The notes below the pieces were generated by a model. The model saw nothing but the letters and a program-made list of their open reading frames with translations, was not told the origin of the DNA and ran no database searches. This document shows positions 3,936-51,666 of a stretch of DNA of 64,000 nt, in pieces. The stretch lies in IMG/VR virus record IMGVR_UViG_3300019124_000103, positions 18,501 through 82,500 of that record; one strand, given 5' to 3'. The position numbers and the translations under genes are program-made. The stretch is from a virus. The stretch's first letter is position 1. The number at the start of each line of letters is the position of its first letter.

Positions 3936-3968
3936 CAAGCCGCTGGCGACCCGCCAGCATCCCCCGAA

Positions 3969-3991
3969 GCCCGCCACTGAGCGGGCTTTTT
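3969..3991 (+). terminator. Rho-independent terminator before scaffold gene
   Basis: GCCCGC, a six-base loop, GCGGGC and a run of five T. It separates the portal group from scaffold and capsid, and probably sets transcript levels for the capsid genes rather than ending the whole late transcript. Confidence 0.75.
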
Positions 3992-4009
3992 CATTTCTGG
4001 AGTTAACGC

Positions 4010-4972: not shown

Positions 4973-4973
4973 A

Positions 4974-5924: not shown

Positions 5925-5942
5925 AGAGCGGGTGTTCCCAAC

Positions 5943-5975
5943 AAGGGGAGTCCTTCGGGGCTCCCCTTTTCTTTT
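5943..5975 (+). terminator. Strong terminator after capsid gene
   Basis: A nine-pair GC-rich stem (GGGGAGTCC with GGGGCTCCCC) closed by a TTCG tetraloop and followed by TTTTCTTTT. A textbook intrinsic terminator. Confidence 0.9.
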
Positions 5976-5985
5976 GGTGTGACGT

Positions 5986-6339
5986 ATGGCTGAACGCGAG
6001 TATCTGGGCGGCGTGACGAACACGACGCTTCACTTTGAAGACGACAAGATGATCGTCGAAGAGGTGGTGGACGCAGAGCCGATCCTCGACTTCGCCCATG
6101 CGGCGCGCAACCATCGCTTCTCTGCCGATGTGTGCGACGGGATGATGCGCCACGAGGCGGAAATCCCCTGGCCGGTCTTCATCGAGGAATGCCGTAAGCG
6201 CGGGCTTCCCCCGACCATCTTTGGGTCTGAGCTGGGCGATATGGTCATCGACTCCATCGTCAACGACCCGCAATACGCGAAGTTCCGCACCGCTCCGACT
6301 CAACGCGACGCCCGCGTGCGCATCAAGGGGGCTCGGTAA
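5986..6339 (+). CDS. Hypothetical phage structural-region protein
   Basis: A 117-residue protein of unknown function between capsid and tailspike. It starts with a beta-rich stretch (VTNTTLHFEDDKMIVEEVV), followed by helices; no domain is recognised. The stop overlaps the next start (TAATG). Genes in this place in SU10-like phages are often small virion or head-completion proteins, so that is a weak guess. Confidence 0.6.
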   Translation: MAEREYLGGVTNTTLHFEDDKMIVEEVVDAEPILDFAHAARNHRFSADVCDGMMRHEAEIPWPVFIEECRKRGLPPTIFGSELGDMVIDSIVNDPQYAKFRTAPTQRDARVRIKGAR

Positions 6340-8516
6340 TGCAGCAGTACCGCAACAGCGTCCGTACGCTGTACGGGCGAGCCGTGCCCGGCGCGAGCAT
6401 CACGGTGCGGCGGTCAGATGGGTCGCTAGCGACGATCTACAACGACAACGGCATCACGCCTCGCGGTAACCCCTTCGCTGCTGGTCAGGACGGGGAATAC
6501 AGCTTCTACGCTGAGAACGGGCGCTATTCCATCACCGTAGTGGCGGCTGGTTATGCCACCGAGACGATTGCCGACGTTCTTCTGCACGACCCCAAAGACG
6601 TTCACGTCTTCGTCGAGGACTTCGGGGCCAAGGGTGACAACGTCACCGACTCGACAACGGCGATTCGCAACGCTTATGCGGCCTTGGTCGCCAAGGGTGG
6701 CGGGACGCTGCATTTCGGGATGGGGCGGTTTATCGTCACCGGTGAACTGAACTTCTATCGCGCCTCGTCCACGAAGATTCCGCTTGTGATCAAGGGGTCC
6801 GACCAACTGACCACGACCATTGTGGCGGGGTTCTATGGTGCGGGCTCGGCGGTGTTCAAGTTCCAGAACGGCACCACGACCCGATGCGCAGCCACCTCGG
6901 TCATGGATCTGGGGTTCGCGTGTCAATCGACCTCGGGCGGCATCAACCCAGTGTTTATCGATGGGTTCCTGGGTGAATCGAACCTCGACCGGGTGAAGTG
7001 CGGTTCATCGAACAACACTCACGTTCGCCTCTGGTCCACTCAAAACCTCCGCTCCACAGGGCTAAAGAGCTTCTACGGCGGTCGTCACTTCAACTACAAG
7101 TCAACCGCTGGTCTCCTGTTCGACGTGGAGACGACGGGCAAGACCATCACCTGCACGAACGGAACGCCGTTCAGCGCTTCGGACGTGGGGAAGTACTTCT
7201 TCATCTTCCCGAGCGATCCGACCCGGCGAATCCGCTACACGATCAGCTCGTATGTCAGCCCGACGCAGGTTGTCTACTCCAACGCAACGGGCCTGACGCA
7301 AACCGGCGCCTTCGGTCATTTCGAGCCTGCACGTGCGGCGATGACCAGCGGGTCGAACGTCCTGACGGCTAATAGCAATTGCTTCACCAGCGACATGGTG
7401 GGGCTGGTGGTCTACGTTCGGCGGGCTCGGGCCGGGTCGTTCGGTGATGGGCTGTTGCGTGGGCAGATCACGTCGTACCTGGCGCCCAACCAAGTAACGC
7501 TGGATCAGAGCTGCAGCAACACGATCACCGACGAGTTTTTCGCGGTGGCGACGCTCGACATGGGCCAGGTGCCCGGGACAGCAGCATCGTCGGACGTGAA
7601 GATCGACAAGTTGCACATCGAGCATTACGACGGTGTGGCGCTGATCTGCCAGAACACCAACAGCTACAACATCGCGGGGAAGCTGCACGGCGAAACCCGG
7701 TCCAGCGACCACGCGAAGTCGATGTCGGCGATGTGGCTGGACGACGTAGGCGGCGATTTCGAGATCGACCTCGATTCATCCTGCACGATGGCCGATAGCC
7801 GGATCTACGCGTCGAACTTCAACGACTGCGTTCGGCTCCACAACGTCGATACCCGCGGCGTGATCCACGGCGAGGTGATCCGCACCGAGCGCTTCACCGA
7901 TCCGGGCGGATATCTGGTGGTCGAGAACGTCAACAGCACGATCGATTTCCCGTCGCCTGAATCGATGTTCATCGACGGAAACGCGGTGGTCGATCCCACC
8001 GACCCCCGTCTGGTGATGACCGGCTTCTGGAACATGCTCGGCGACTCCCAAAAGGGGCGCGTGTATGTGGGCCGAAGCTATTTCATGCCGGATGGGACGT
8101 TCGTTCCTGCCCAGCGATTGGGGGACTCGGCTTTCACCGGCACGATTGCGTGGGACGGGACAGCGCCGAGTAATCCCACTTCTCTGCGGTACCGCTGGGA
8201 GCGTGTCGGGTCGTTGGTCCGTGCGGATTTCCGCCTGGAGTACGGCACGCCAGGGGCGACCAACACGGTCGTGACGCTGACGCTTCCCACGAGCATGCCG
8301 GCGCCGGTGTTCATGTCGGGGACGGGAACAAATGAGCTGGTCGCCGTGCCGATCACGGGCCACATCGCCACCGCTCCTTCGGGTGCGGTGCCGGCGTTGG
8401 TGAAGGCCTATGTGGTTCGGAGCGGGTCAGACACCCAGCTGAAGGTGACGCTCAACAGCGGCAGCGTCAGTGCCGGTTATGCGGCTTTCTCTGTCACGTA
8501 TTGGGCGGCAGCATGA
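6339..8516 (+). CDS. Tailspike with pectate-lyase-type beta-helix (phage A)
   Basis: A 725-residue virion fibre. Residues 1-80 form a small beta domain (YGRAVPGASITVRRSDGSLA) of the type that anchors spikes to the virion. DFGAKGDNVTDSTTAIRNAY at about residue 91 is the entry motif of pectate-lyase-3 beta-helices, and GGGTLHFGMGRF follows. The middle is a long stretch of short strands, and the last 100 residues look like a jelly-roll trimerisation or carbohydrate-binding tip. Such proteins bind and cut capsular or exopolysaccharide. Substrate is unknown. Confidence 0.8.
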   Translation: MQQYRNSVRTLYGRAVPGASITVRRSDGSLATIYNDNGITPRGNPFAAGQDGEYSFYAENGRYSITVVAAGYATETIADVLLHDPKDVHVFVEDFGAKGDNVTDSTTAIRNAYAALVAKGGGTLHFGMGRFIVTGELNFYRASSTKIPLVIKGSDQLTTTIVAGFYGAGSAVFKFQNGTTTRCAATSVMDLGFACQSTSGGINPVFIDGFLGESNLDRVKCGSSNNTHVRLWSTQNLRSTGLKSFYGGRHFNYKSTAGLLFDVETTGKTITCTNGTPFSASDVGKYFFIFPSDPTRRIRYTISSYVSPTQVVYSNATGLTQTGAFGHFEPARAAMTSGSNVLTANSNCFTSDMVGLVVYVRRARAGSFGDGLLRGQITSYLAPNQVTLDQSCSNTITDEFFAVATLDMGQVPGTAASSDVKIDKLHIEHYDGVALICQNTNSYNIAGKLHGETRSSDHAKSMSAMWLDDVGGDFEIDLDSSCTMADSRIYASNFNDCVRLHNVDTRGVIHGEVIRTERFTDPGGYLVVENVNSTIDFPSPESMFIDGNAVVDPTDPRLVMTGFWNMLGDSQKGRVYVGRSYFMPDGTFVPAQRLGDSAFTGTIAWDGTAPSNPTSLRYRWERVGSLVRADFRLEYGTPGATNTVVTLTLPTSMPAPVFMSGTGTNELVAVPITGHIATAPSGAVPALVKAYVVRSGSDTQLKVTLNSGSVSAGYAAFSVTYWAAA

Positions 8517-9190
8517 CGGTCCTACTGAGTTCCGCGGATGTCCCGCCGCGAATCACCAGCTTCTCGGGGCTGCTGGAGGCGCTGACCCGCCTGATCGACG
8601 GTGAAGACACGTCGGTCTCCGATGTGTCGGTCAACACGCTCAAGCAGATCGTCAACATGGGCGAACGCCGGATCTACCGGGAAGTTCGCTCACGCCACAA
8701 CGAAAAAGCGTTCTCCGGCATCACGGTCGTGGACAACGAAGCCCCGATTCCCCCGGATTGGGAGGCTGCATCCATCGTGCATTTCGGGGGTAAGGCGCTC
8801 GCCCCGGTCGCTGAAGAGTGGCTTCGGGAGTACCTGGAGCGCGGGGCGACGGGGCCTGCCGTTTACTTCGCTGAAGCGGGGTCCAGCCTGATCTTTGCGC
8901 CCTCGGTCAGTGACGACACCGAGGTGAAGGGGCGCTATTACTGCCGGCTCCCCGACCTGACGACGGAGAACTTCTCCAGCAATCAGCTCTTTGCCGCGGA
9001 AAGCGACCTCTTCATCTACGCAGCCCTTGCGGAGAGCGGCCCGTACTTCGGCGCCGATCACATGCAGAAGATTCCCTTCTGGGAGCAGAAGTACCAGGCG
9101 GTCCGGGACCGCATCAACACGAACAAACAGCGCGCCGCGTACTCCGCTGGTCGGATGCAAGTGCGCCCGTCTACCAACTTGATGGGGTAA
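8513..9190 (+). CDS. Head-tail adaptor-like protein (phage A)
   Basis: A 225-residue protein. The first 70 residues (LLEALTRLIDGEDTSVSDV, then TLKQIVNMGERRIYREVR) and the later PPDWEAA and YYCRLPDL segments match the pattern of SU10-type adaptor proteins that form a ring under the portal. The ATG overlaps the spike stop (ATGA). It is the only gp4-like candidate in the phage A head-tail junction. Assigned by pattern memory, not by a search. Confidence 0.6.
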   Translation: MTVLLSSADVPPRITSFSGLLEALTRLIDGEDTSVSDVSVNTLKQIVNMGERRIYREVRSRHNEKAFSGITVVDNEAPIPPDWEAASIVHFGGKALAPVAEEWLREYLERGATGPAVYFAEAGSSLIFAPSVSDDTEVKGRYYCRLPDLTTENFSSNQLFAAESDLFIYAALAESGPYFGADHMQKIPFWEQKYQAVRDRINTNKQRAAYSAGRMQVRPSTNLMG

Positions 9191-9734: not shown

Positions 9735-11555
9735 ATGCCATTCAAGGACTACTACATCGGCCCGACCGGCTCAAACAGCAACAACGGGCAGAGCTATGCG
9801 AACCGGGTGCAGACCTGGCCGAAGATGAACCAATTGATCGCTTCGGAGAACCCTCCTGGCATCAACGACACGGTGCGCATCTTCGTGGATGCGTTCGATT
9901 TCTCGTCTAACGGCGCGTTCGGCTACTTCGGCAACTTCACGAACAACAACGTTGCGGCCAACGCGACGATCAGTGTGCAGTGCGCCAACGGCATCCTGAT
10001 TACCGCATACGACCCCACCGCGAACTGGCATTTCAGCGATATCCGCACGCTGACAAACACGGCCGACTTCACGGACCTGGGCGGCGGAATCTGGCGCACG
10101 AGCACCACGTTCGTGACCGCGGGCCTGTCGAACAAAGCAGTGCGCGTGTGGCGGTGCGCGACTTCGTTGACCGACAAGCGGTTGGCTGTGCTCGACCCGG
10201 ACAACGAGTTGTTCGAGGCGGCCAGCTACGCCACGCTGGGCGACAACGAATCGCACGCCTGGACGCAGGTAGACAGCGGCAACACCTGGGGCACGAGCGA
10301 CACGACGCCCACGTCGTTTGCTGCCATGCGCACGCTGTACCTCTACAGCCCGAAGGGGAACCCGGCGACGGTGTGGGGCGGCATCGCTGTGTTGACGCAA
10401 GAGGGCTTCCACAACTTCATGCGCATTCAGGGCCTGGACAACTGGACGCTGGACGACAGCATCAAGTGCTTGGGTGGCGGGCAGTACGCCTTCCGCTTGA
10501 ACGGCGGCAGCAACTGGCGGTTCGAGCCGCAGATTCTGGCGACCTCGCCATACCGGCCTGCAGTCGCGGTCAACGAGGGTCCGCTCAACACGACCGCCGA
10601 ACTGCAGAACTGCACGCTGGCGCCCCGCATCGATGCCCTGATCAAGGATCGGCCGTTCTACCCGTTCGAGAGCGGGCACCACAACGGCGGGTTCAACGAC
10701 CTCGTGCAGTTCGGCACCAACGCATGCGTGCGCAACATCCGCTTCGCGGCCAAGAGCACCTCCGGCTTGCAATCCCACATCCGTGGCGCCAACCACTCGG
10801 CGATTGCCCGCGGCGTCGGCGGCTCGGGGTATATCCACGGGCTGACCATCGAACCTGAGTTCCTGTTCGACGGCTCGGGGCAGCAGTATTCCCGCGCGTT
10901 CGCGTTCAACGGCACGGGTACCAGCCTGACCGGCCTGGATATCGGCGGCCGGGTCTACAACATGCGCGCGCCCGACCAAATCCATGGCTCCGGGTTCGTG
11001 CGCAACTACAAGTCGTTCAACCGCCTGCCGATGATCCCGGCCGCCCGCAATGCGGCCAACAACAGCGGCTTGGTGACGAGCTACACCAGCCGCTTCGGCG
11101 GACAGACGCGCAACTACGGCAACGCGCTCGCGGACGGCAAGTGGTGGGACGCCCAGTGCCTGGCGATCTACAACAGCGGCGCGAACGTGCGGTTTGGGCA
11201 CTTGTCCGTGGTCGATTGCGAGTTCGACGCCCCGATGGGGCCGGCTGTCGCGGTCACGACGGACGCGACCCCTGCGGCCAGCCAATCGGTGACGGTGGCG
11301 AACTGCCTATTCCGCCGTGGATCGTCGCCGGGCGAGGTGGGCGTGGCGGTGCAGATCGACACGCGCAACAGCTGCGCGAACGCGGTACGGTTGATCAACA
11401 ACACCGAGATCGGCGGCATGCAGAACGCGACGTTCAACGGCGCCGACCGTGTGAAGGTGTCGGTAGACGGTCTGGTCTGCGCAGTTAATACCGGCTGGAA
11501 GTCCTACGCCACCGATGCGGAGTACCGCGCCGCGCTTAGCGCACAGATTTCCTAG
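9735..11555 (+). CDS. Right-handed beta-helix tail protein, probable depolymerase (phage A)
   Basis: A 606-residue protein starting YYIGPTGSNSNNGQSYANR, the opening seen in many secreted and phage parallel beta-helix proteins (yYVspsGsDsNdG type). The body is rich in Asn, Gly and short strands with repeated turns. A second virion polysaccharide-binding or -cutting protein is likely. Its last 20 bases overlap the end of the PEP-CTERM gene on the other strand. In phage B the same place is taken by an unrelated glycosidase-like protein (48075). Confidence 0.7.
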   Translation: MPFKDYYIGPTGSNSNNGQSYANRVQTWPKMNQLIASENPPGINDTVRIFVDAFDFSSNGAFGYFGNFTNNNVAANATISVQCANGILITAYDPTANWHFSDIRTLTNTADFTDLGGGIWRTSTTFVTAGLSNKAVRVWRCATSLTDKRLAVLDPDNELFEAASYATLGDNESHAWTQVDSGNTWGTSDTTPTSFAAMRTLYLYSPKGNPATVWGGIAVLTQEGFHNFMRIQGLDNWTLDDSIKCLGGGQYAFRLNGGSNWRFEPQILATSPYRPAVAVNEGPLNTTAELQNCTLAPRIDALIKDRPFYPFESGHHNGGFNDLVQFGTNACVRNIRFAAKSTSGLQSHIRGANHSAIARGVGGSGYIHGLTIEPEFLFDGSGQQYSRAFAFNGTGTSLTGLDIGGRVYNMRAPDQIHGSGFVRNYKSFNRLPMIPAARNAANNSGLVTSYTSRFGGQTRNYGNALADGKWWDAQCLAIYNSGANVRFGHLSVVDCEFDAPMGPAVAVTTDATPAASQSVTVANCLFRRGSSPGEVGVAVQIDTRNSCANAVRLINNTEIGGMQNATFNGADRVKVSVDGLVCAVNTGWKSYATDAEYRAALSAQIS

Positions 11556-12126: not shown

Positions 12127-12133
12127 GGGTTGT

Positions 12134-12151
12134 CCTCCGTGAGTGCGGAGG
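12134..12151 (-). promoter_or_regulatory. Hairpin hiding the ribosome site of the PEP-CTERM gene
   Basis: A perfect inverted repeat CCTCCG-CACTCA-CGGAGG (minus-strand reading) in which the second arm is the ribosome-binding site of the PEP-CTERM gene, ending seven bases before its ATG. In a long read-through transcript the site would be closed. Confidence 0.6.
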
Positions 12152-12167
12152 TTAGCCATCAACCGGT

Positions 12168-13601
12168 GTGCCATCCCCCCAAGTGTTAGGGATTGGCCCC
12201 CTATCTAGGTGCATCGTGATCCCCTTCGTCGGCCCCTCTTATGCGCTGGATTTCCGCAAAGCGGACGTTCAGCGCTCGGTGAACTGGTACCCGGCCCTCA
12301 TTGAGTCGGGTACTGGTAAGTCGCTGGCGATGCTGGCCGAGGTGCCGGGCCTTCAGGTGTTCGCCACTCTGGGGGCACCCGTTCGGGGGGCTTGGGAGGT
12401 CGCTGGGCGGCTCTTTGCAGTGGCTGGTTCGGCCCTCTACGAGGTGAGTTCGGCGGGTGTTCCCACTTTCAGGGGGGCTCTGAACACCTCCTCGGGGGTG
12501 GTGGAGGCCGATCACGGGTTGTTTCAGTTGGTGCTGGTGGATGGACCCTGTGGTTATGTCCTGAACCTCCAGACCAACGCCTTCCAGCAGATCACCAGCC
12601 CCGCTTTCTACGGCTCAAAGAGCGTGGCCTTCCTCGACGGCGTCTTTTATTTCGTCCGCCCAGATACCCAGCAGTTCTATTGGTCGGCGATTGACGATGC
12701 GACGGACCTCAGTGGGCTGGATTTCGCTTCGGCGGAACGATCTCCAGACAACATCGTTCGCCTGATCGTCAGCTTCGGGGAAGCGCTGATTCTGGGCGAG
12801 AAGTCTGGGGAGGTCTGGTCCCCGAGAGGTGATCCTGAGTCCCCTCTGGAGCGCAACAACGGGGCATTGATCGAGGTGGGGTGTGCGGCGCCTGCCTCTG
12901 TCAGAAAGCTCGACAACACCGTGATCTGGGTCGGCAACGACGCGAACGGCTCGGGTGTCGTGTGGATGCTGGAAGGCTACAAGCCGGTGCCGATCTCTGA
13001 CCGTCCTAGGGAAGAACTGCTTGCCAAGAGCACGGACCTTTCGGGGGCGGTTGCCTATACCGAGCAGTACGAAGGCCATCGGTTCTATTGCCTGCGCGTT
13101 CCTGGGCTCGATACGACGCACGTTTTCGACCTCAAGACCCGGCAATGGCACGAGCGGGCGGAATTGGTCAATGGCGAGTACACCCAGCACCGGGCCACCT
13201 GCCATGCCTACGCCTTTGGCAAGCACATCGTCGGGGCGGATGACGGGAAGCTCTACGTCTACGTGAAGACCGGCAACAACGCGGGGGACGTGAAGGTCAG
13301 GGACCGGATCAGCCCTCACATGGCTGTGCCGAGCCTCGAATTCCTGCCGTTCAACACGTTTGAGCTTGACGCTCAAGTCGGCGAGGGCAAGCCGGACGGC
13401 ACTGAAGCGAAGGTTTTGCTTCGCTACTCCAACAACGGCGGGGCCACGTGGTCCGCCTGGCGGGAGGCGTCACTGGGGTCGGTGGGTCAACTCGAAAAGC
13501 GGGTGATCTGGCGGCGATTGGGTCGAGCCAAAGACCGCGTGTGGCACGTCCGGGTGACTGACGACGCGCCCTGTTCTCTGATTCAAGCGAAGGTGTCCTG
13601 A
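12168..13601 (+). CDS. P22 gp10-like tail / packaged-DNA stabilisation protein (phage A copy)
   Basis: A 477-residue protein of the P22 gp10 type, the hub that closes the portal channel and carries the tail needle and spikes. RKADVQRSVNWYPALIESG and the PGLQVFATL segment fit the family opening; repeated WVG, GVVWML and FYCLRVPGL blades suggest a beta-propeller. From codon 17 on it is nearly identical to the copy at 50245 (16 differences over about 460 residues by my count), which marks the start of the shared module. GTG is taken as start because it lines up with the ATG of the other copy; a downstream GTG is possible. Confidence 0.8.
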   Translation: MPSPQVLGIGPLSRCIVIPFVGPSYALDFRKADVQRSVNWYPALIESGTGKSLAMLAEVPGLQVFATLGAPVRGAWEVAGRLFAVAGSALYEVSSAGVPTFRGALNTSSGVVEADHGLFQLVLVDGPCGYVLNLQTNAFQQITSPAFYGSKSVAFLDGVFYFVRPDTQQFYWSAIDDATDLSGLDFASAERSPDNIVRLIVSFGEALILGEKSGEVWSPRGDPESPLERNNGALIEVGCAAPASVRKLDNTVIWVGNDANGSGVVWMLEGYKPVPISDRPREELLAKSTDLSGAVAYTEQYEGHRFYCLRVPGLDTTHVFDLKTRQWHERAELVNGEYTQHRATCHAYAFGKHIVGADDGKLYVYVKTGNNAGDVKVRDRISPHMAVPSLEFLPFNTFELDAQVGEGKPDGTEAKVLLRYSNNGGATWSAWREASLGSVGQLEKRVIWRRLGRAKDRVWHVRVTDDAPCSLIQAKVS

Positions 13602-41263: not shown

Positions 41264-41539
41264 ATGGGACGACCAATCGGAAAACTCCACCAGGAGGACG
41301 TGCGCCGCAAGATCCAGGTGAGTCAACTCCTGAATGTCTTGCAGGATCATGCACTTAGCGGCGAACACGACCTGAGCCCGACGCGCATGAAGGCAATCGA
41401 GATCCTTCTGCGTAAGAGCCTGCCTGATCTGACCGCCATCACGATCAGCGGCGACCCGGACAACCCGCTTGAGGTGGTGGGGTTGAGCAAAGAACAGAGA
41501 GATGCGGCAGTCCGCGCAGCTCAACGCGCCGACTCCTGA
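41264..41539 (+). CDS. terS: Terminase small subunit (phage B)
   Basis: A 91-residue helical protein: GRPIGKLHQEDVRRKIQVSQ, LLNVLQDHALSG and LSPTRMKAIEILLRKSLPDL have the pattern of small terminases that bind the packaging start site. It overlaps the large subunit by 38 bases. GGGGG lies eight bases before the ATG. Confidence 0.75.
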   Translation: MGRPIGKLHQEDVRRKIQVSQLLNVLQDHALSGEHDLSPTRMKAIEILLRKSLPDLTAITISGDPDNPLEVVGLSKEQRDAAVRAAQRADS

Positions 41540-42950
41540 AGACTTCGCCTTTTCCAGGCTGATCGCCTATGCGGCGTATCAGTGGCCCGGCTACAAAGAC
41601 GCAGCGCATCACAGGCTGATTGCCAGGGCGCTGGAAAGGGTAGAGCGGGGAGAGACGAAGCGGCTGATGATCTTCATGCCGCCACGTCACGGGAAGTCGA
41701 TGCTCTCGAGCGAGTTCTTCCCAGCGTGGTACCTGGGGAGGAACCCGGATCACTACGTGATCGCCTCGACCTACGCGCAGGAGCTGGCTGACGACTTCGG
41801 GCGCAAGGTCAAGCTCCAAATTGCTGACCCGTCTTACTCGGCGATCTTTCCCGGCGTGAAGCTGGCTGACGACAGCCAGAGCGTCAAGCGCTTCCACGTC
41901 GAGGGCGGCCTTGAAGTAGGAACGGCCCAGCGTGGCGCCTACTACGCGGTTGGCGTGGGCGGGCCGTTGACGGGGCGGGGCGCCCACCTGCTGTTGATCG
42001 ATGACCCGGTGAAGAACCGGGAAGAGGCGGACAGCGAGATCGTCCGGCGTCGCATCAAAGACTGGTACACCTCAACGGCCTACACCCGCCTGATGCCTGG
42101 CGCTCGGGTGGTGGTGATTCAGACCCGCTGGCACGAGGACGACCTTTCGGGCTGGCTGCTGAAAGAGCACGCGCACGAAGGCTGGGAGGTGCTGGAGCTT
42201 CCGGCGCTAGACGGTGAGAAGCCGCTATGGCCCGAGCAGTACAGCCGGGAGGCGCTGGAGCGAATTCGGCTCGCGGTTGGTTCGCGTGATTGGTCCGCGC
42301 TGTATCAGCAGAGGCCGACACCAGAGAGCGGCGACTACTTCAAGAAGGAATGGTTCCGCTACTACGAGACGTTGCCGCAGCACGTCACGTACTACGGGGC
42401 GAGTGACTACGCGATCACGGCCAAGGGCGGGGATTACACCGTCCACGGCATTGGGGCGGTTGACAACGCCGGGAACCTCTACATCACTGACTGGTGGCGA
42501 CACCAGACCAGCTCGGACGTGTGGGTCGAGGTGTTCCTCGATCTGGTGAAGAAGTGGAACCCGCTCACCTGGGGCGAAGAACAGGGCCAGATCATCAAGA
42601 GCCTTGACCCGTTCATTCGGCGAAGGATGGATGAGCGGCAGACCTACTGCGCGCGGGAGCAGTTCACCAGCCTCACGGACAAAGCCAGTCGAGCCCAAAG
42701 CATCCGGGCTCGTATGGCAATGGGGAAGGTGTTCTTCCCGAAGAACGCGCCTTGGCTGGCGGATCTGGAATCCGAGCTGCTGACCTTCCCGGTCGGGGCG
42801 AACGATGACCAAGTGGACGTTTTGGGCCTGTTTGGCCGGATGTTGGATCAGTTGATCGGTGCGGAAGCGCCGGAAGTACAGAAACCCCGGGATCGGTGGG
42901 ATCGCGCATTCGGCGATGCCGAAGAGGACGACACATGGCGTACAGCGTAG
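41502..42950 (+). CDS. terL: Terminase large subunit (phage B)
   Basis: A 482-residue packaging motor. Walker A PPRHGKS (residues 60-66), Walker B LLLIDDP with the acidic pair at 167-168, the coupling RVVVIQTRWHEDDLSG motif, and the C-terminal nuclease starting YGASDYAITAKGGDY with the late GANDDQVDVL acidic cluster. Complete and unrelated in sequence to the fragment at the left end of the window. Confidence 0.9.
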   Translation: MRQSAQLNAPTPEDFAFSRLIAYAAYQWPGYKDAAHHRLIARALERVERGETKRLMIFMPPRHGKSMLSSEFFPAWYLGRNPDHYVIASTYAQELADDFGRKVKLQIADPSYSAIFPGVKLADDSQSVKRFHVEGGLEVGTAQRGAYYAVGVGGPLTGRGAHLLLIDDPVKNREEADSEIVRRRIKDWYTSTAYTRLMPGARVVVIQTRWHEDDLSGWLLKEHAHEGWEVLELPALDGEKPLWPEQYSREALERIRLAVGSRDWSALYQQRPTPESGDYFKKEWFRYYETLPQHVTYYGASDYAITAKGGDYTVHGIGAVDNAGNLYITDWWRHQTSSDVWVEVFLDLVKKWNPLTWGEEQGQIIKSLDPFIRRRMDERQTYCAREQFTSLTDKASRAQSIRARMAMGKVFFPKNAPWLADLESELLTFPVGANDDQVDVLGLFGRMLDQLIGAEAPEVQKPRDRWDRAFGDAEEDDTWRTA

Positions 42951-44785
42951 ACAAGACACAGGACGAGGGGTTGACCCGGCTCGTCCAGTGGTACGAGTCC
43001 GCCGAGGAACTGACTCGGGAAGCCCGCCAAGACGCCGAGACGTGCCGCGACTACGTTGACGGCAAGCAGTGGACCGACGCCGAGATCGAGGCGCTGAAGA
43101 AGCGCAAACAGCCCATCATCACGATCAACCGCATGAAGCGGAAGATCGACTTCTTGAAGGGTGTCGAGAAGCGCCAGAGAACCGACCCGAAAGCACTCCC
43201 AAGGAACCCGAGCGACGAGAAGACCGCTGAAGCGGCGACCGATGCCCTTCGTTTCGTCTGCGAGGACAGCGACTTTGATCGGGTCCGCTCCGAAGCCTGG
43301 GACAACCTGCTTGTAGAGGGATTGTGTGCGGCTGAGATCCTGGTAGAGAAGGGCAAGAACCACCCAAAGATCCGTGTCGAGTTCCTGCCGTTTGATCGCA
43401 TCTTCTTCGATCCTCACAGCCGCTTTGACGACTTCCGGGATGCCAAGTACTTGGGCGTTGTCGTGTGGATGGACCTGGAGGACGCAAAGCAGCGCTATCC
43501 GGGCAAAGAGGACGTCCTGACGAGCTGCCTCGGTACCTCAACCCCAACAAGCGAGACCTACGAGGACCGCCCGCGGATGATGTGGGCCGACTCCAAGCGC
43601 AAGCGCGTCCGTGTCGCCCAAGTCTGCTACCGGGAAAACGGCGTGTGGATGCGCGCCACGTTCACGCGCACGGGATATCTACGCGATCCCGAACAATCGT
43701 GGCTGACCGACGAAGACGGCAACCCGGATTGCCCGATGGTGTTCCAGTCCGCTTACGTGGACCGCGAGAACAACCGCTATGGTCTCGCCAAGGAGATGAT
43801 TTCCCCCCAAGACGAGATCAACAAGCGCCGCTCCAAGATGCTCCATCTGCTGAATGTGCGGCAGACGTTGAGCGACAAGGGCGCCTTCGCTGATGCAGGC
43901 GGGGTGACGAAGGCCAAGACCGAGCTTTCAAAGCCGGATGGACACATCGAAGTCGCCCCAGGGAAGCGGTTTGAAGTTCTCCCAACGGGGGACATGGCTC
44001 GTGGACAGTTTGAACTGCTCCAGGAGGCCAAAGCCGAAATGGACCTTCTGGGTCCGAACGCGGCAATGCAGGGCAAACAGGGGGGTGACCCCTCAGGTCG
44101 AGCGATCCAACTCCAGCAGCAAGGCGGCTACGTCGAGATTGAGCCGCTTGTGGATGCTTTGCGGTTCTGGCAAAAGCGGATCTATCGCAAGCTGTGGATG
44201 TGCGTTCGGCAGTTCTGGACCAATGAAGTCTGGGTTCGGGTTACTGACAGCGACGAAAAGCTCAAGTGGGTCGGTTTGAATGTGCCTATCACGGTGGCCG
44301 ATCAGCTCCAGAGTGAGGGGATCGAGATTCCTCCTGAGGCGATGGGCGATCCGCGGCTGCAACAGGTGGTGGGCACTCATAACCCCATCGTTGAACTCGA
44401 CGTGGACATCATCATCGATGAAGGGCCGGACCTCGCAACCCTCCAAAGCGAGCAGTTCGAGACCGTGATGAACGCGGTTCAAGCCTCCGGGCAGCCGATC
44501 CCGCTGCCGGTGATGCTCAAGCTGATGCCGAACCTGCGTGACCGCGACAAGATCATTGAAATGGTCCAAGGCGGTGGTCAGCAAATGGACCCGCGCATGG
44601 CTCAGATGGGTCAACAGCTCGAACAGTTGGGTCAAGAGAACCAGCAACTGAAGGCAGACAAGAGCCTAGAAGCCCAAAAGATGCAGATCGAGGGCTTCAA
44701 GGCCGAAACAGACCGCTTGAACGTCGAGGCGGATGCCTTCTTTAACCAGATGCGTGCCCAACAGCCGCCGATGGTCTCGATCTAA
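42935..44785 (+). CDS. Portal protein, P22-like (phage B)
   Basis: A 616-residue portal of the P22-like family. TCRDYVDGKQWTDAEIEALK and QPIITINRMKRKIDFLKGVE are the family opening. LVEGLCAAEILVE and NRYGLAKEMISPQDEINKRR belong to the wing and stem. The C-terminus is Gln-rich and helical. Overlaps terL by 16 bases. Confidence 0.9.
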   Translation: MAYSVDKTQDEGLTRLVQWYESAEELTREARQDAETCRDYVDGKQWTDAEIEALKKRKQPIITINRMKRKIDFLKGVEKRQRTDPKALPRNPSDEKTAEAATDALRFVCEDSDFDRVRSEAWDNLLVEGLCAAEILVEKGKNHPKIRVEFLPFDRIFFDPHSRFDDFRDAKYLGVVVWMDLEDAKQRYPGKEDVLTSCLGTSTPTSETYEDRPRMMWADSKRKRVRVAQVCYRENGVWMRATFTRTGYLRDPEQSWLTDEDGNPDCPMVFQSAYVDRENNRYGLAKEMISPQDEINKRRSKMLHLLNVRQTLSDKGAFADAGGVTKAKTELSKPDGHIEVAPGKRFEVLPTGDMARGQFELLQEAKAEMDLLGPNAAMQGKQGGDPSGRAIQLQQQGGYVEIEPLVDALRFWQKRIYRKLWMCVRQFWTNEVWVRVTDSDEKLKWVGLNVPITVADQLQSEGIEIPPEAMGDPRLQQVVGTHNPIVELDVDIIIDEGPDLATLQSEQFETVMNAVQASGQPIPLPVMLKLMPNLRDRDKIIEMVQGGGQQMDPRMAQMGQQLEQLGQENQQLKADKSLEAQKMQIEGFKAETDRLNVEADAFFNQMRAQQPPMVSI

Positions 44786-44803
44786 ACCGCTTTCCTCAAC
44801 AAG

Positions 44804-44834
44804 ACCCGCCCAGGGAAACCTCGGCGGGTTTCTT
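44804..44834 (+). terminator. Terminator after portal gene
   Basis: ACCCGCC and GGCGGGT arms with a 12-base loop, followed by TTTCTTC. Same position relative to the scaffold gene as the phage A terminator at 3969. Confidence 0.65.
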
Positions 44835-44897
44835 CATGCCGTCGCCGGGCTTTCGGGCGAGACGTGACGCCGACGAATCGGGCGATTTTGGGAATGT

Positions 44898-45608
44898 ATG
44901 GACCAGCTTGAAGGATTTCTTGGGAGCGAACCTGTTGTTCATGAGCAAGTGCAGGCAGAAGTGCCGGCCGAGCCAGTTCATCAGGAAGCACAGGGCGTAA
45001 TTGCGGAGCCGCCAGCCGCGCAAGAGACCGTAGCCCCTCAGACCCACGCCGAACAGGAGCCCCCTCAAGGGCATGTCCCTGTCAAGGCAGTGCTTGAAGA
45101 GCGCCGTAAGCGCCAAGAGCTAGAGCATCAGCTCGCGCAGATGCGGGCGCAGTTCTCACAACAGCCACAACAGGCCGTTCAGCCTCCCCCGGAGGTTGCG
45201 CACCAGGCGGTGATGAACATGGCCCTCAATACCGCGGAGTACGTCCTTCGGACCCAGTTCCAGGACTACGACGACGTGCGCGACTTCTTCATTTCACAAG
45301 CGGAACAAAACCCGTACCTGATCGGCCAGCTTCGGCAGTCAGGCAACCCGGCTTTGTTCGCCTACGAGATGGGGAAAAAGCTCAAAGCGATGGAAGAGAT
45401 CGGAGACCCGAAGAGCTACGAACAGCGCATTCGAGAGAAGGTTCTCGCGGAGCTTCAGGCACAGCAACAGGAACAGGTCAAAGAGGCGCGTCTTGCATCG
45501 GCTTCCGACTCGCTGGCGAGTGCCCGCGCTGTCGGCGGTCAAACGCCGCCCACATACGCAGGCCCGCCGTCTCTCGATGAGATCTTGGCCTCGAAACGAC
45601 GCAAGTAA
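44898..45608 (+). CDS. Scaffolding protein (phage B)
   Basis: A 236-residue protein: Pro/Gln/Glu-rich N-terminal 60 residues, a coiled coil (LEERRKRQELEHQLAQMRAQ), a helical middle, a second coiled coil around residue 180, and the basic end LASKRRK. Composition and place before the capsid gene indicate a scaffold. Confidence 0.75.
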   Translation: MDQLEGFLGSEPVVHEQVQAEVPAEPVHQEAQGVIAEPPAAQETVAPQTHAEQEPPQGHVPVKAVLEERRKRQELEHQLAQMRAQFSQQPQQAVQPPPEVAHQAVMNMALNTAEYVLRTQFQDYDDVRDFFISQAEQNPYLIGQLRQSGNPALFAYEMGKKLKAMEEIGDPKSYEQRIREKVLAELQAQQQEQVKEARLASASDSLASARAVGGQTPPTYAGPPSLDEILASKRRK

Positions 45609-45628
45609 GAGGCCCGAAAGGGTAAGAA

Positions 45629-46693
45629 ATGGCACTGTCTACTGTCTCCACCGCTAACCGTGTAAAGCAGTGGGATTCCGAGTTCTTCGCTGAATACGTC
45701 CGCCAGAACCGCTTCTCGCGGTACATGGGCACGGATGAGAACGCGATCATTCAGATCAAGGAGAACCTGACCAAGCAAAAGGGCGACACGATCAACATTC
45801 CGTTGGTCGCCAAGCTCACCGGCGCTGGCGTTACCGGCAACGGCCTGTTGGAGGGCAACGAAGAAGCCCTGGCGAACCACAACTTCCCCATCGTTGTGGA
45901 CACCCTGCGTCACGCGGTCGCGATCACCGACCACGAAGAGCAGATGACAGAGATCGACATGCGCGGCGCCTCCAAGGCAATGCTCAAGTCGTGGGCGATG
46001 GAGAAGCTGCGTACCGACATCATCACTGGCCTCGGCCAGATCTATGACGCCGGCACGGGCAACTTCGTGACCTACGGTTCGGCTTCTGCTGCCCAGAAGA
46101 ACGCTTGGAACGCCAACAACAGCGACCGCGTTCTGTTCGGCACCCTGCGGTCGAATTACAACTCCACGCATGCCACCGCTCTGGCGACCGTGGCAGCGGC
46201 CCAGAAGCTCTCCGCTCCTGTGGTGTCGCTGATGAAGCGCATCGCCAAGACCGCCACCCCCATCATCCGCCCGTACATGGTGGAGGACGAGGAAGAGTGG
46301 TACGTGATGTTCGCCAACTCGCTGGCCTTCCGCGACCTGAAGGAAAACCTGACGACGTTGCATCGCGATGCAATGGAGCGCGGCAAGTCGAACCCGCTCT
46401 TCCGGGATGGCGATCTGGTCTATGACGGCGTGATCGTGCGTGAGATCCCCGAGATGGGCGTTCTCAATGGTGTCGGCAACGCTGGCGCCAACGTGAGCCC
46501 GGTCTACCTGTGTGGCGCTCAGGCTCTGGGCGTTGCCTGGGCCAAGCGCACCAAGAGCACCACGGATACCCGCGACTACGGCTTTGTCCACGGTGTGGGC
46601 ATCGCCGAAATGCGCGGCGTGCGCAAGTGCGTGTTCAACAACAAGGACCACGGGGTTGTTACCGGCTTTGTGGCGACCGCGGCTGACGCCTAA
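45629..46693 (+). CDS. Major capsid protein, N4-gp56/DUF4043 type (phage B)
   Basis: A 354-residue capsid protein. KQWDSEFFAEYVRQNRFSRY near the start, KGDTINIPLVAKLTGAGVTG and LRHAVAITDHEEQMTEIDMR are the typical blocks of the N4-gp56/DUF4043 family. An HK97-type fold is expected from the family. Not related by sequence to the phage A capsid. Confidence 0.88.
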   Translation: MALSTVSTANRVKQWDSEFFAEYVRQNRFSRYMGTDENAIIQIKENLTKQKGDTINIPLVAKLTGAGVTGNGLLEGNEEALANHNFPIVVDTLRHAVAITDHEEQMTEIDMRGASKAMLKSWAMEKLRTDIITGLGQIYDAGTGNFVTYGSASAAQKNAWNANNSDRVLFGTLRSNYNSTHATALATVAAAQKLSAPVVSLMKRIAKTATPIIRPYMVEDEEEWYVMFANSLAFRDLKENLTTLHRDAMERGKSNPLFRDGDLVYDGVIVREIPEMGVLNGVGNAGANVSPVYLCGAQALGVAWAKRTKSTTDTRDYGFVHGVGIAEMRGVRKCVFNNKDHGVVTGFVATAADA

Positions 46694-47106: not shown

Positions 47107-48078
47107 ATGGCGTATTTGGACACTGGCGAATCAGCGCAAATCAGCCTGACGGCTGGGCACACGCTTGTTTTTTTCACCGAGCGTGATGGGCGGGCGACTG
47201 TTCGTGCCTTGAGTGGGGTTCCGGGGGCGCCTTACGAGATTGGGCGTTTCGAGTCCGCGGGACAAACGACCATCGGCCCGTTTTCAACAAGCTGCGTCCT
47301 TTCCCTGACCGCCGCCGGGAAGGATCTGGAGTACGCCTTCGGCGCGAGTCCGGTGCTGACGACCACTGCGGGCGGCCTTGCACTGGCAACCGGCGTCCCC
47401 GCCGGTACCGCGATCCGCAAGGACAAGCCCTTCGCTGGGGTGGTGTACGAAAACGGGGTGGCGCTGGACAACAACTACACCGTGGCGACGTTGCCGACTG
47501 CTGCCGCAGCCTATGCGGGTTTGGTTGCGTGGGTCAGTGACGCCACCGCTTCCGGCCTGTCGTTCGAGTGCTTGAGCTACGACGGCGGCACAACCTGGGT
47601 TTGGGTGCCTGTTGGTCGTGTTTGGCCGTGGCAGCGCAACCGGACGGTCAGCACCGCGCAAGCCGGCACCAACGCGTTCGTCGAAACCAGCAACTTCACG
47701 CTGCCCAACCGCACAGACGTGTATGTGCCGGGGATGGATATCGTGTTCGAGGCGAACGCAGTCTACACGGGAACGACGAGCACCAAGACCCAGCGGCTGG
47801 AGCATCAGGCCAGCGGCAACTTCCTGATGAGCCATCAGGCCAGCGCAGCCCAGCTGTCGTCCGAAACGCGCTGTGCTCTGCACGTTGGCCCGGCCGTTGG
47901 CGGTCAGTTCCAGATCGCCAACTCAGCCAGCGCCAGCGGCTACACGGCTGGTTCCGGCGCGGACCTGGCGTTCAGCTTCACGCTGCCTGGCGCGTTGTTC
48001 CGCTGGGGCTTCCTGATCGCCAGCGGTTCGGACACCGGCTCTTACAAGCGGCGTGACGTCACGCTGATCTACCCGTGA
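47107..48078 (+). CDS. Beta-rich tail protein (phage B)
   Basis: A 323-residue protein built of short strands. The first 80 residues (ISLTAGHTLVFFTERDGRA, then GPFSTSCVLSLTAAGKDLEY) resemble the phage A protein at 9194. Residues about 110-170 have a LSYDGGTTWVWVPVGR segment typical of small carbohydrate-module repeats, and the C-terminus looks like a jelly-roll tip. Probably a minor tail or decoration fibre. Confidence 0.6.
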   Translation: MAYLDTGESAQISLTAGHTLVFFTERDGRATVRALSGVPGAPYEIGRFESAGQTTIGPFSTSCVLSLTAAGKDLEYAFGASPVLTTTAGGLALATGVPAGTAIRKDKPFAGVVYENGVALDNNYTVATLPTAAAAYAGLVAWVSDATASGLSFECLSYDGGTTWVWVPVGRVWPWQRNRTVSTAQAGTNAFVETSNFTLPNRTDVYVPGMDIVFEANAVYTGTTSTKTQRLEHQASGNFLMSHQASAAQLSSETRCALHVGPAVGGQFQIANSASASGYTAGSGADLAFSFTLPGALFRWGFLIASGSDTGSYKRRDVTLIYP

Positions 48079-49706
48079 TCGCGCGCCTGTCTCAGCATCG
48101 CCTGCGCCGCGCCGTGGCACGCCCCACGGCCTTTGCTGCGCAGGGGCGTGCCATCTTCAACATCACGGACAACAACGCCGCCCACACGGCCGAGTTCCTG
48201 CGCTGGTTCGATCACGTCGAGTTCTCCAGTGCGCGACTACACCCGCTGGCCGGCACCACGCGGTACAACGCCTTCCAGTCGCTCATCAACGCGACCAAGG
48301 CGCTGAATCCCAATGTGAAGTTCGGCGCCTACGTCATCGCCTACGAGCACGGCGGGCAGATCAGTTTCCCGGGCACGATCAGCCGCAGCGGCAACACGCT
48401 GACGATCAACCTGGTCAACATCACCGCCCAGTCCGCAGCGAACGTGGCCTCGACCGGCAACGTCGGCTCTGTGAGCATCCTGGTGTATGGGCTGGAGGGG
48501 CCGCTGGCGGTCTACAACGGCACCTGGCCGTTGGCGGCCAACCTGACCAGCGGGCAGCAGTCGATCCAGCTCAACGTAGCCGGCAACGCTGCGGCTGAGA
48601 GCGGGCCGACCAGCGGAGATGCGGCCGGCATCGGCTTGATCTCCTACAGCAACACCGTGGCCTGGACGGTGTGCAACAAGCTGAAGGACAACCCGAGCTG
48701 GTATCTCTACAAGCGCGGCACCTCGGGGCGGAAAACCGCGTGGACGACGCTTTACAACGCCACGAACATGAACATCACCGACACCTGCGACACCGACGCG
48801 CAGGGCCGGCGGTGGGTGGACTACTGCGCCGAGTTCTACTACGACAACTTGTTCGCGCACCTCTCGCTGGATTGGGTGTTCATCGACAACTACATGGACC
48901 CGCGGCAGGACGTGGTCAACGACGTGCAGTTTGGCAGCAGTACCGCGGCCCGTCAGACCTACGACTTCCTGCGCGACGGCAACGGGCAGTTGATCTCGAA
49001 CGCTACGGTGCTGGAGAAGATGCGCGCCGGCTGCGCTGCCTTCGCCAACAAGTTCAAGAGCTATTCGGCCGGAAAGCCGGTGTCGCCGAACCTGTTCACG
49101 GTGGGCAACTACGACAACGCCAACGGCGGCGGTCTGCCCAGCCCGCTCAACGCCATCGAGTACAGCTGGATCGAGCTGGTCTACAGCAACATTGGCGATG
49201 CCGACCGCTCGGGGCTGGGCGGCGTGAACGGCTTCTCGAAGTTCTACGCTCCCGGCACCGGGGTGCTCCAGAAGCACGTTGGCCGGCTGCCTGCCGGCGG
49301 CAAGGTGGTCTTGGGCGTCAAGCCGCTGAACGGCTGGGCTGACAAAGAGGTGATCCGCTTCGGCGCCTGCACCGCGTGGCTGCACGGCGACATGGTGTGC
49401 ATCGACGCCAGCAGCGGCACACCCTACGTGCCCGACGAGTTCAAAGTGGGCTTGGGGCTGCCGATTGAGCCACCGCCCACGGCCGCCACCGCCTCCGGCC
49501 TGTGGGTGCGCCGGTATGAAAACGGCCTGATCGCCGTCAACCCAGGTGCCTCCGCGGCCTACCTCGACCTGACCGGCACGCTCTACAAGCGGATCAACGG
49601 CACGGACGACCCGGCCGTCAACAGCGGCGGCGCACCGATCAACGGCGGCACCACGATTCCCGCTCGCAGTGCGCGGGTGTTCGTCATCAACGACCCCGGG
49701 CTGTGA
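48075..49706 (+). CDS. Glycoside-hydrolase-like tail protein (phage B)
   Basis: A 543-residue protein with a probable TIM-barrel: AEFLRWFDHVEFSSAR, ALNPNVKFGAYVIAYEHGG, the conserved strand WVFIDNYMDPR (acidic residue candidate) and IEYSWIELVYSN. The C-terminal 80 residues (GLWVRRYENGLIAVNPG) look like the beta-sandwich that closes many glycosidases. It is likely a virion depolymerase and stands where phage A has a beta-helix protein. The substrate and family number are unknown. The 3' end overlaps the PEP-CTERM gene by 20 bases. Confidence 0.65.
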   Translation: MIARLSQHRLRRAVARPTAFAAQGRAIFNITDNNAAHTAEFLRWFDHVEFSSARLHPLAGTTRYNAFQSLINATKALNPNVKFGAYVIAYEHGGQISFPGTISRSGNTLTINLVNITAQSAANVASTGNVGSVSILVYGLEGPLAVYNGTWPLAANLTSGQQSIQLNVAGNAAAESGPTSGDAAGIGLISYSNTVAWTVCNKLKDNPSWYLYKRGTSGRKTAWTTLYNATNMNITDTCDTDAQGRRWVDYCAEFYYDNLFAHLSLDWVFIDNYMDPRQDVVNDVQFGSSTAARQTYDFLRDGNGQLISNATVLEKMRAGCAAFANKFKSYSAGKPVSPNLFTVGNYDNANGGGLPSPLNAIEYSWIELVYSNIGDADRSGLGGVNGFSKFYAPGTGVLQKHVGRLPAGGKVVLGVKPLNGWADKEVIRFGACTAWLHGDMVCIDASSGTPYVPDEFKVGLGLPIEPPPTAATASGLWVRRYENGLIAVNPGASAAYLDLTGTLYKRINGTDDPAVNSGGAPINGGTTIPARSARVFVINDPGL

Positions 49707-50205
49707 GCAGCAGCGGCAGCCCGAGCAGCAGCATGGCGACGGTTCCGGGCTCCGGGGCGTGGGACACCACAGCCAGGCTCCATTCCTGGCTGTACCCGTT
49801 GCCCTCCAAGGAGGCGCGCATTCCACTGACGCGAAACCATTCGTCGCGCCATGAGGGAATTTCGCCGCCCATCGTGCGCAGCCTGTACTCGATGCCGACA
49901 AGCGCGCCATCGAGGAAGGTCACCGATGGTGCGAAGGGTGCCGGCACGCCGAGCACATTGACTGAAGACAGGTTGGGCCATCCGTCCGGGTTTCCGTTGG
50001 TGAAGAACGCCAACCGCAGCAGCTCGGACCCGCTGGCGGTCCAGGTGCCCAGCGTTGGCACGCTGCCGGCGACCTCGACGAGCCCGCTGTTGCTGTCCGA
50101 GATACACGCTGGCATGCCACCGCAGTCCAGGCGCATCTCGAAGTGATAGGTCGCGGCTTGAGCCGCACCAGCCGCAAAGAGCGCGGCAGCGATCAGGTAT
50201 TTCAT
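49687..50205 (-). CDS. PEP-CTERM sorted exported protein (cargo gene, phage B)
   Basis: A 172-residue exported protein with a signal peptide (MKYLIAAALFAAGAAQA) and the C-terminal signal APEPGTVAM, a hydrophobic stretch and ARGR. The middle domain is beta-rich, with one possible disulfide pair (CGGMPAC), and is not related to that of the phage A protein, yet both occupy the same place and strand. GGGAG is close to the ATG and lies in a hairpin. Exosortase of the host would be needed to process it. Confidence 0.85.
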   Translation of the reverse strand: MKYLIAAALFAAGAAQAATYHFEMRLDCGGMPACISDSNSGLVEVAGSVPTLGTWTASGSELLRLAFFTNGNPDGWPNLSSVNVLGVPAPFAPSVTFLDGALVGIEYRLRTMGGEIPSWRDEWFRVSGMRASLEGNGYSQEWSLAVVSHAPEPGTVAMLLLGLPLLLTARGR

Positions 50206-50206
50206 G

Positions 50207-50229
50207 ACGTCTCCCAAAGAGGGTGACGT
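50207..50229 (-). promoter_or_regulatory. Hairpin hiding the ribosome site of the PEP-CTERM gene (phage B)
   Basis: In minus-strand reading ACGTC-A-CCC-TCTTT-GGG-A-GACGT: five plus three pairs around an A-A mismatch. The descending arm contains the ribosome site GGGAG and ends one base before the ATG. The sequence is different from the hairpin of phage A but the arrangement is the same. Confidence 0.6.
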
Positions 50230-50244
50230 TAGCCAACAACTGCC

Positions 50245-51666
50245 ATGCCATACCCCCTAACCCTAGGGGCTGGAGTCCCGGTGATCCCCTTCGTAGGCCC
50301 TTCTTACTCGCTTGATTTCCGCAAGGCGGACGTTCAGCGCTCGGTGAACTGGTACCCGGCCCTTATTGAGTCTGGGACGGGTAAATCACTGGCCATGCTG
50401 GCCGAGGTGCCGGGGCTTCAGGTGTTTGCCACTCTGGGCGCACCCGTTCGGGGGGCTTGGGAGGTCGCTGGGAGATTGTTTGCGGTTGCCGGATCGGCGC
50501 TTTACGAGGTGAGTTCGGCCGGTGTCCCCACTTTCAGGGGGTCTCTCTCCACCTCTTCGGGGGTGGTGGAGGCGGACTACGGGTTGTTTCAGTTGGTGCT
50601 GGTGGATGGGCCTTGTGGTTATGTCCTGAACCTCCAGACCAACGCCTTCCAGCAGATCACCAGCCCCGCTTTCTACGGCTCAAAGAGCGTTGCCTTCCTT
50701 GACGGCGTCTTTTATTTCGTCCGCCCCGATACCCAGCAGTTCTATTGGTCGGCGATTGACGATGCCACGGACTTGAGCGGGCTGGACTTTGCATCGGCGG
50801 AACGATCCCCAGACAACATCGTCCGCCTGATCGTCAGCTTCGGGGAAGCGCTGATTCTTGGCGAGAAGTCCGGGGAAGTGTGGTCCCCGAGGGGCGATCC
50901 TGAGTCCCCCCTGGAGCGCAGCAACGGTGCGTTGATCGAGGTGGGCTGTGCGGCTCCCGCCTCTGTTCGGAAGCTCGACAACACCGTGATCTGGGTCGGC
51001 AACGACGCCAACGGCTCTGGTGTCGTGTGGATGCTGGAAGGCTACAAGCCGGTGCCGATCTCCGACCGTCCGCGCGAAGAACTGCTTGCCAAGAGCACGG
51101 ACCTCGCGGGGTCGGTTGCCTATACCGAGCAGTACGAAGGCCATCGGTTCTATTGCCTGCGCGTTCCTGGGCTCGATACGACGCACGTCTTCGACCTCAA
51201 GACCCGCCAATGGCATGAGCGGGCGGAATTGGTCAATGGTGAGTACACCCAGCACCGGGCCACCTGTCACGCCTATGCGTTTGGCAAGCATCTGGTCGGA
51301 GCGGATGACGGGAGGCTCTACGCCTACGTGAAGACCGGCAACAACGCGGGGGACGTGAAAGTCAGGGACCGGATCAGCCCGCACATGGCTGTCCCGAGCC
51401 TCGAATTCCTGGCGTTCAACACGTTTGAGCTGGATGCGCAAGTCGGCGAAGGCAAGCCGGATGGAGGCGAAGCGAAGGTTTTGCTTCGGTACTCCAACAA
51501 CGGCGGGGCTACTTGGTCTGCCTGGCGGGAAGCGTCACTAGGCGCTGTGGGTGAACTCGAAAAGCGGGTGATCTGGCGCCGTCTAGGGCGAGCCAAAGAC
51601 CGCGTGTGGCATGTCCGGGTGACTGACGATGTTCTCTGTTCTCTGATTCAAGCGAAGGTGTCATGA
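50245..51666 (+). CDS. P22 gp10-like tail / packaged-DNA stabilisation protein (phage B copy)
   Basis: A 473-residue homologue of the protein at 12168, identical except for 16 changes after codon 13. Most changes are conservative (A/S, I/L, Q/E). This is the first gene of the shared module and lies directly behind the PEP-CTERM gene as in phage A. The start ATG is well supported by the short distance to the conserved VIPFVGPSY segment. Confidence 0.82.
   Translation: MPYPLTLGAGVPVIPFVGPSYSLDFRKADVQRSVNWYPALIESGTGKSLAMLAEVPGLQVFATLGAPVRGAWEVAGRLFAVAGSALYEVSSAGVPTFRGSLSTSSGVVEADYGLFQLVLVDGPCGYVLNLQTNAFQQITSPAFYGSKSVAFLDGVFYFVRPDTQQFYWSAIDDATDLSGLDFASAERSPDNIVRLIVSFGEALILGEKSGEVWSPRGDPESPLERSNGALIEVGCAAPASVRKLDNTVIWVGNDANGSGVVWMLEGYKPVPISDRPREELLAKSTDLAGSVAYTEQYEGHRFYCLRVPGLDTTHVFDLKTRQWHERAELVNGEYTQHRATCHAYAFGKHLVGADDGRLYAYVKTGNNAGDVKVRDRISPHMAVPSLEFLAFNTFELDAQVGEGKPDGGEAKVLLRYSNNGGATWSAWREASLGAVGELEKRVIWRRLGRAKDRVWHVRVTDDVLCSLIQAKVS

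Follow-up and report, generated by a model that had tools for sequence, protein, structure and literature searches.

A reverse-strand position beside the gp10 head-closure gene holds different predicted PEP-CTERM proteins in one clade of phages

The window analysed here, a stretch of 64,000 nucleotides, is part of an 82.5-kb virus record (G000) that carries two related phages, A and B, arranged in tandem and about 38–43 kb apart in register. In both phages a gene on the minus strand occupies the slot between a plus-strand tail gene and the gene for a gp10-like head-closure protein, and there is one tyrosine integrase for each phage. The features discussed below are the following, with coordinates in the window except for the last.

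9735..11555, plus strand: tail gene of phage A, convergent with the slot gene (overlap 20 nt) and not related to that of phage B
11536..12126, minus strand: slot gene of phage A, a predicted secreted PEP-CTERM protein of 196 aa, unrelated to that of B (PF07589, 36.1 bits)
12160..12172, minus strand: leader element GGCACACCGGTTG of the A slot gene, 33 nt upstream of its start codon
12168..13601, plus strand: gp10-like head-closure gene of phage A, its product 97% identical in amino acids to gp10 of phage B
25155..26231, minus strand: tyrosine integrase between phages A and B, assigned to B (PF00589, 47.1 bits)
48075..49706, plus strand: tail gene of phage B, convergent with the slot gene (overlap 20 nt), with homologues in the tail genes of two relatives, L180 and L003
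49687..50205, minus strand: slot gene of phage B, a predicted secreted PEP-CTERM protein of 172 aa (open reading frame, ribosome site GGGAG, homologue in L180)
49690..49755, minus strand: PEP-CTERM end of the B slot protein, PEPGTVAMLLLGLPLLLTARGR (PF07589, 19.2 bits, E 1.9e-4)
50155..50205, minus strand: predicted signal peptide of the B slot protein, MKYLIAAALFAAGAAQA (by inspection of the sequence: a K in the n-region, an h-region and an AQA cleavage site)
50237..50249, minus strand: leader element GGCATGGCAGTTG of the B slot gene, 31 nt upstream of its start codon
50245..51666, plus strand: gp10-like head-closure gene (Hc3) of phage B, conserved from 50281 (phrog_578, E 6.6e-102)
record positions 103-525, left of the window: second integrase

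On the slot side, the nucleotide homology between the two phages begins at the start of gp10 (12216 in A, 50281 in B), so that the tail gene and the slot gene both lie on the non-homologous side. The heads also differ (window 1200-9187 and 41502-46693): phage A has an SU10-like portal, capsid and adaptor, and phage B a P22-like portal and Phage_capsid_3. Despite these entirely different heads, gp10 and the tail-end genes are common to both phages at 91–97%, and it is unusual to find the head exchanged beside a head-closure protein that is itself conserved.

In bacteria that make EPS, exported PEP-CTERM proteins are retained by their C-terminal helix and processed by exosortases of the EpsH type (PMC1569441). 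The slot protein of phage A, with its predicted signal peptide MKLLPLALLALLPAAQA and its PEP-CTERM end PEPSTYLLMALGLGALGFLQSRKSVR, exceeds the curated cut-offs for this class. The protein of phage B stays slightly under them: PF07589, with a cut-off of 20.7, scores 15.3 when the protein is searched and 19.2 when the genome is, and TIGR02595, with a cut-off of 16, scores 15.4; its tail end matches NF038126 at E 5e-6. Over the whole 82.5-kb record, PF07589 finds matches at these two slot genes and nowhere else. The GC3 of the slot genes in the minus frame is 0.77–0.79 (0.79 in B), which, together with a homologue of the B gene at 41% identity in L180, supports the reading of these frames as coding. 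The initial annotation, made from the window, had described two PEP-CTERM genes in the same slot with entirely different mature domains, and both parts of that description hold. The two proteins find each other only through the PEP region (E 0.54), and each has the signal peptide, the PEP-CTERM end, the reverse strand and the position between tail gene and gp10.

The slot was then followed through the relatives of gp10, which were collected from several scans of viral contigs, one scan of genome contigs and additional genome searches. This gave 185 gp10 loci with at least 700 nt of upstream sequence, 142 of them distinct at 95% nucleotide identity. A hidden Markov model built from 10 PEP-CTERM seeds missed the slot gene of L180, and for this reason the census also used a PEP-CTERM-like end pattern combined with a signal-peptide rule, and PF07589 on whole records. 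A reverse-strand reading frame with signal peptide and PEP-CTERM end stands in the slot of exactly five distinct phages: A, B, L003, L005 and L180. Two of the five share a record, a single metagenome is the source of both L003 and L180, and the contigs of L003 and L005 are fragments. The other distinct loci among the 142 have no PEP-CTERM gene in the slot. In most of them there is no slot at all, since the upstream plus-strand gene ends about 10 nt or less from gp10. The matches are also specific within the genomes: PF07589 on 20 whole relative records hit the slot frames of L180, L003 and L005 only, and the 10-seed model, run on 2.2 Mb of six-frame reading frames of gp10 relatives, gave matches at E<0.01 in slot frames only. 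By inspection, all five slot proteins have the PEP motif, the hydrophobic helix and the basic C-terminal end, and by a rule-based detection all five have an N-terminal signal peptide and, from there to the tail, no helix. A, L003 and L005 score above the curated PEP-CTERM cut-offs, and B and L180 slightly below.

A tree of 20 gp10 proteins places the five PEP-CTERM phages and one further phage, L028, in a single clade with 96/95 support. L028 is nested inside this clade and its slot is without a reverse-strand gene. It has a different tail gene and a short plus-strand reading frame there (7487-8001), and its gp10 is about 66% identical to that of L180. Parsimony on the unrooted gp10 tree requires two changes, most simply a single gain of the slot with a single loss; from the sequences, L028 may represent either a loss or a replacement of the module, and the slot position itself probably has a single origin, in one clade. 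The count of slot contents that the initial annotation had called for is thus five of six members within the clade and none among the other distinct loci, so the pairing of A and B is not a matter of chance. Random cargo in the slots of relatives, which was to speak against the proposal, was not seen, the sixth member having no reverse-strand gene in its slot.

The mature parts of the five cargo proteins are related to different degrees. B and L180 carry homologues (41% identity; mature part at E about 1e-5), and the cargo of L003 is perhaps a distant relative of these two: the hhalign comparison of A3 with L003 gave a probability of 89%, to which the signal peptide and the tail contribute. 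In their mature domains the cargos of A (15% probability, from the tail only) and L005 (24%) resemble none of the others, and these two are recognisably related neither to the B, L180 and L003 group nor to each other. The two independent cargo proteins of the initial annotation are therefore a fair description of A versus B, but not of the slot as a whole. In viral contigs the B cargo has its one homologue in L180; 50,697 phage records contain none for the cargos of A, L003 and L005; PHROGs has no family for the four cargos tested; and in genomes of the order of Janthinobacterium the B cargo gives three weak matches. The AlphaFold models had too little confidence to be of use (pLDDT 42 for cargo B, 35 for the tail gene of B).

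The tail genes next to the slot follow the same division. The tail gene of B is homologous to those of L180 (E 4e-29) and L003 (E 3e-11), and A and L005 have tail genes related neither to these three nor to each other, so that the type of cargo tracks the family of the tail gene across the five phages. Tail gene and cargo thus appear to move as one module, as far as sequence comparison can tell; physical linkage alone could give the same co-variation. Two weak matches, to GHL15 in L003 (E 0.016) and to a right-handed beta helix in L005 (E 3.6e-4), are compatible with candidate depolymerase or receptor-binding tail proteins. The L005 tail gene (4603-6355) appears to be frame-shifted near its 3' end, the reading frame breaking at 6153 and another frame continuing to 6355, which may be a sequencing error. 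The finer geometry of the locus is less regular than A and B suggest. The overlap with the tail gene that had been noted is exactly 20 bases in both, but it is 71 in L003 and 35 in L180, and the agreement between A and B is therefore a coincidence. The distances to gp10, described as the same, are similar though not identical (93 nt in A and 76 nt in B to the first conserved gp10 codon).

A short element, GGCAY-N5-TTG, is found in the leaders of all five slot genes, its end lying 31, 31, 33, 33 and 34 nt upstream of the start codon. The chance of such a match at that distance is at most 7e-4 per leader, although four of the five leaders are homologous and hence not independent trials. A scan for a shared leader block matched in L003 and L005 only. 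The element is spaced like a sigma-54 -24/-12 site, and the leader of pepA from Aquincola tertiaricarbonis reads TGGCAC...CTGCTT (PMC9850573). The described regulon of PEP-CTERM genes is that of PrsR, whose motif 1, TTTACA, is reported to precede 99 of 167 proteobacterial PEP-CTERM genes (PMC1569441). We looked for a two-part site made of TTTACA and, 32–92 nt later, a -24 GG/-12 GC site. Chromosomal PEP-CTERM genes have it in 6 of 38 cases, against 0.75 expected; in the five phage leaders TTTACA is absent at the published spacing with 0–1 mismatch, and GG...GC with the -12 GC is present in L180 and absent from the other four. Membership of the slot genes in the host PrsR regulon was rejected on these two grounds, and by this test they stand outside the regulon as described. 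The strict leader pattern of the phages, searched in turn in 33 chromosomal leaders, gave 2 matches against 0.2 expected, at other positions. Scans of the slots for sigma-70 promoters and terminators gave nothing above chance, and the terminator-like hairpins near the slots (window 11402-11415 and 49973-49989) are likewise at chance level. Just upstream of the leader element, four of the five phages, all except L180, have a C-run/G-run hairpin (CCCC-loop-GGGG), which in A and B falls between the slot start and gp10 (window 12127-12216 and 50206-50280). It could insulate the two transcripts.

Several observations bear on the way of life of these phages. Integrases are present in three records, that of A and B (two), that of L180 and that of L028; those of the first two records are tyrosine integrases and mark these phages as temperate. 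Exosortase genes were not found in the phage records, so the phages would depend on an exosortase of the host. Hosts of this kind are common, as 63 of 150 sampled genomes from the order of Janthinobacterium have PEP-CTERM genes. No close relative of gp10 turned up among the genomes searched, which numbered 399 from the order, 399 from a family and 369 from the class.

The slot gene stands between genes that adjoin each other in relatives. Morons, or lysogenic conversion genes of temperate phages, are extra genes of just this kind, standing between genes adjoining in relatives and on the opposite strand. We therefore read the slot as a moron of unusual regularity, in which different cargos share one sorting signal at one position; the sharing of a sorting signal sets it apart from other morons, as does the lack of a recognised sigma-70 promoter or terminator. 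The most probable account, in our judgement, is that a moron slot was gained once, that its cargo has changed while the sorting signal was kept, and that its product is a surface protein of the lysogen sorted by the host exosortase, which would make it a case of lysogenic conversion. According to this proposal, the slot would have arisen once in the ancestor of the gp10 clade, and the cargo would have changed in step with the neighbouring tail gene, with signal peptide, sorting tail, strand, position and leader element being retained. In the lysogen the minus strand would be transcribed, and the protein would be exported and its PEP-CTERM tail then processed by an EpsH/Xrt exosortase of the host. 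Displayed in the outer envelope or in the exopolysaccharide layer, it would alter the surface of the lysogen, and the altered EPS or receptor may weaken the re-adsorption of phages with the same tail protein. Such protection is our best guess at the likeliest benefit, by analogy with Llp of phage T5. Weighing against the account are the sub-threshold scores of B and L180, the missing PrsR/sigma-54 site, the lack of sigma-70 promoters and terminators above chance level, the absence of close gp10 relatives from the genomes searched, and the small number of phages, which is five. The initial annotation had suggested that the slot selects for exosortase-sorted proteins; the single gp10 clade and the co-variation of cargo and tail gene favour an inherited module of tail gene and cargo with its sorting signal over repeated independent captures.

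A narrower form of this account holds that each cargo provides matched superinfection exclusion, masking or altering the very receptor or EPS that is bound by the neighbouring tail protein. The tracking of tail-gene families by cargo families would follow from it, and the tail genes are hypervariable next to a gp10 97% identical, as expected of receptor-binding or depolymerase genes. The weak GHL15 and beta-helix matches point the same way, as does the finding that overexpression of PepA moves EPS from the soluble to the cell-bound fraction (PMC9850573). Against this, linkage predicts the co-variation equally, the role of the tail gene is putative, the phages are few, and the structural models give no help. 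We regard this version as possible but doubtful. If it is extended to an exchangeable pair of tail protein and surface protein, which would guard the lysogen from phages with a matching tail and would be expressed from a phage-specific GGCAY-N5-TTG promoter in place of the PrsR regulon, it becomes a rather unlikely, speculative proposal.

Other explanations would do away with the changing cargo, with the exosortase, or with the pattern altogether. All five cargos could descend from one ancestral gene that diverged rapidly between two constrained ends, as the identity between B and L180, the hhalign match of L003 and the confinement to a single clade would suggest; the lack of mature-domain similarity in A and L005 tells against it, as do cargos that are unrelated in A and B beside nearly identical gp10 proteins. 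We find this somewhat unlikely as an account of all five, and both replacement of the cargo and extreme divergence are possible. It is improbable that the C-terminal end is a mere membrane anchor of an exosortase-independent exclusion protein in the inner membrane or periplasm. The sub-threshold scores of B and L180 and the absent PrsR site would allow it, but the PEP motif, helix and basic end recur in every slot protein, three of them above the cut-offs, and PEP is unlikely to recur by chance at one position in five proteins that otherwise differ in sequence. The window itself offered just two cases, which could have been unrelated genes that merely look alike; with the distribution over the 142 distinct loci and the slot-only matches in 2.2 Mb, we give that idea almost no credence. 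The reading we prefer remains that of a slot gained once, with changing cargo and a sorting signal that was kept.

It is worth comparing the slot genes with systems already described. Like other PEP-CTERM/exosortase substrates (TIGR02595, PF07589; Haft et al. 2006, PMC1569441), they combine a signal peptide, a PEP motif, one C-terminal helix and a basic end with a mature part that has no homology to known families, and each is a single gene with its own leader; they differ in being encoded by phages and in lacking PrsR motif 1. PepA of A. tertiaricarbonis, an RpoN-dependent floc protein, is likewise a PEP-CTERM protein with a leader of the -24 TGGCAC type, and its effect (a shift of EPS from soluble to cell-bound, with restoration of flocs) shows that a single PEP-CTERM protein is able to alter how EPS is bound and whether flocs form (PMC9850573). 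It is, however, a chromosomal gene near prsT, and its sequence matches with the slot cargos are confined to the sorting tail. Llp, which phage T5, a lytic phage, uses to block FhuA (PMC9586334), and other surface exclusion proteins are small phage proteins on the host surface, as the slot proteins are predicted to be, here beside a candidate receptor-binding gene. The slot proteins bear an exosortase tag where Llp is a lipoprotein, and for them exclusion is a putative role. The initial annotation had spoken of a class of lysogenic-conversion gene not known to be described; the literature on PEP-CTERM or exosortase genes of phages and prophages that was covered, which held few subscription journals, gave no account of a phage-borne PEP-CTERM cargo.

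In the bacteria of activated sludge and sediments, PEP-CTERM proteins hold flocs and biofilms together, and nearly all of them are of unknown function. A phage slot with different cargos and one sorting signal points to an undescribed route by which resident phages may redecorate the surface of their hosts. If it is indeed reserved for PEP-CTERM proteins, prophages would be rewriting the surface and the EPS of such bacteria, and the slot cargos would offer small, exchangeable test proteins for the study of exosortase function and of phage exclusion in environmental bacteria.
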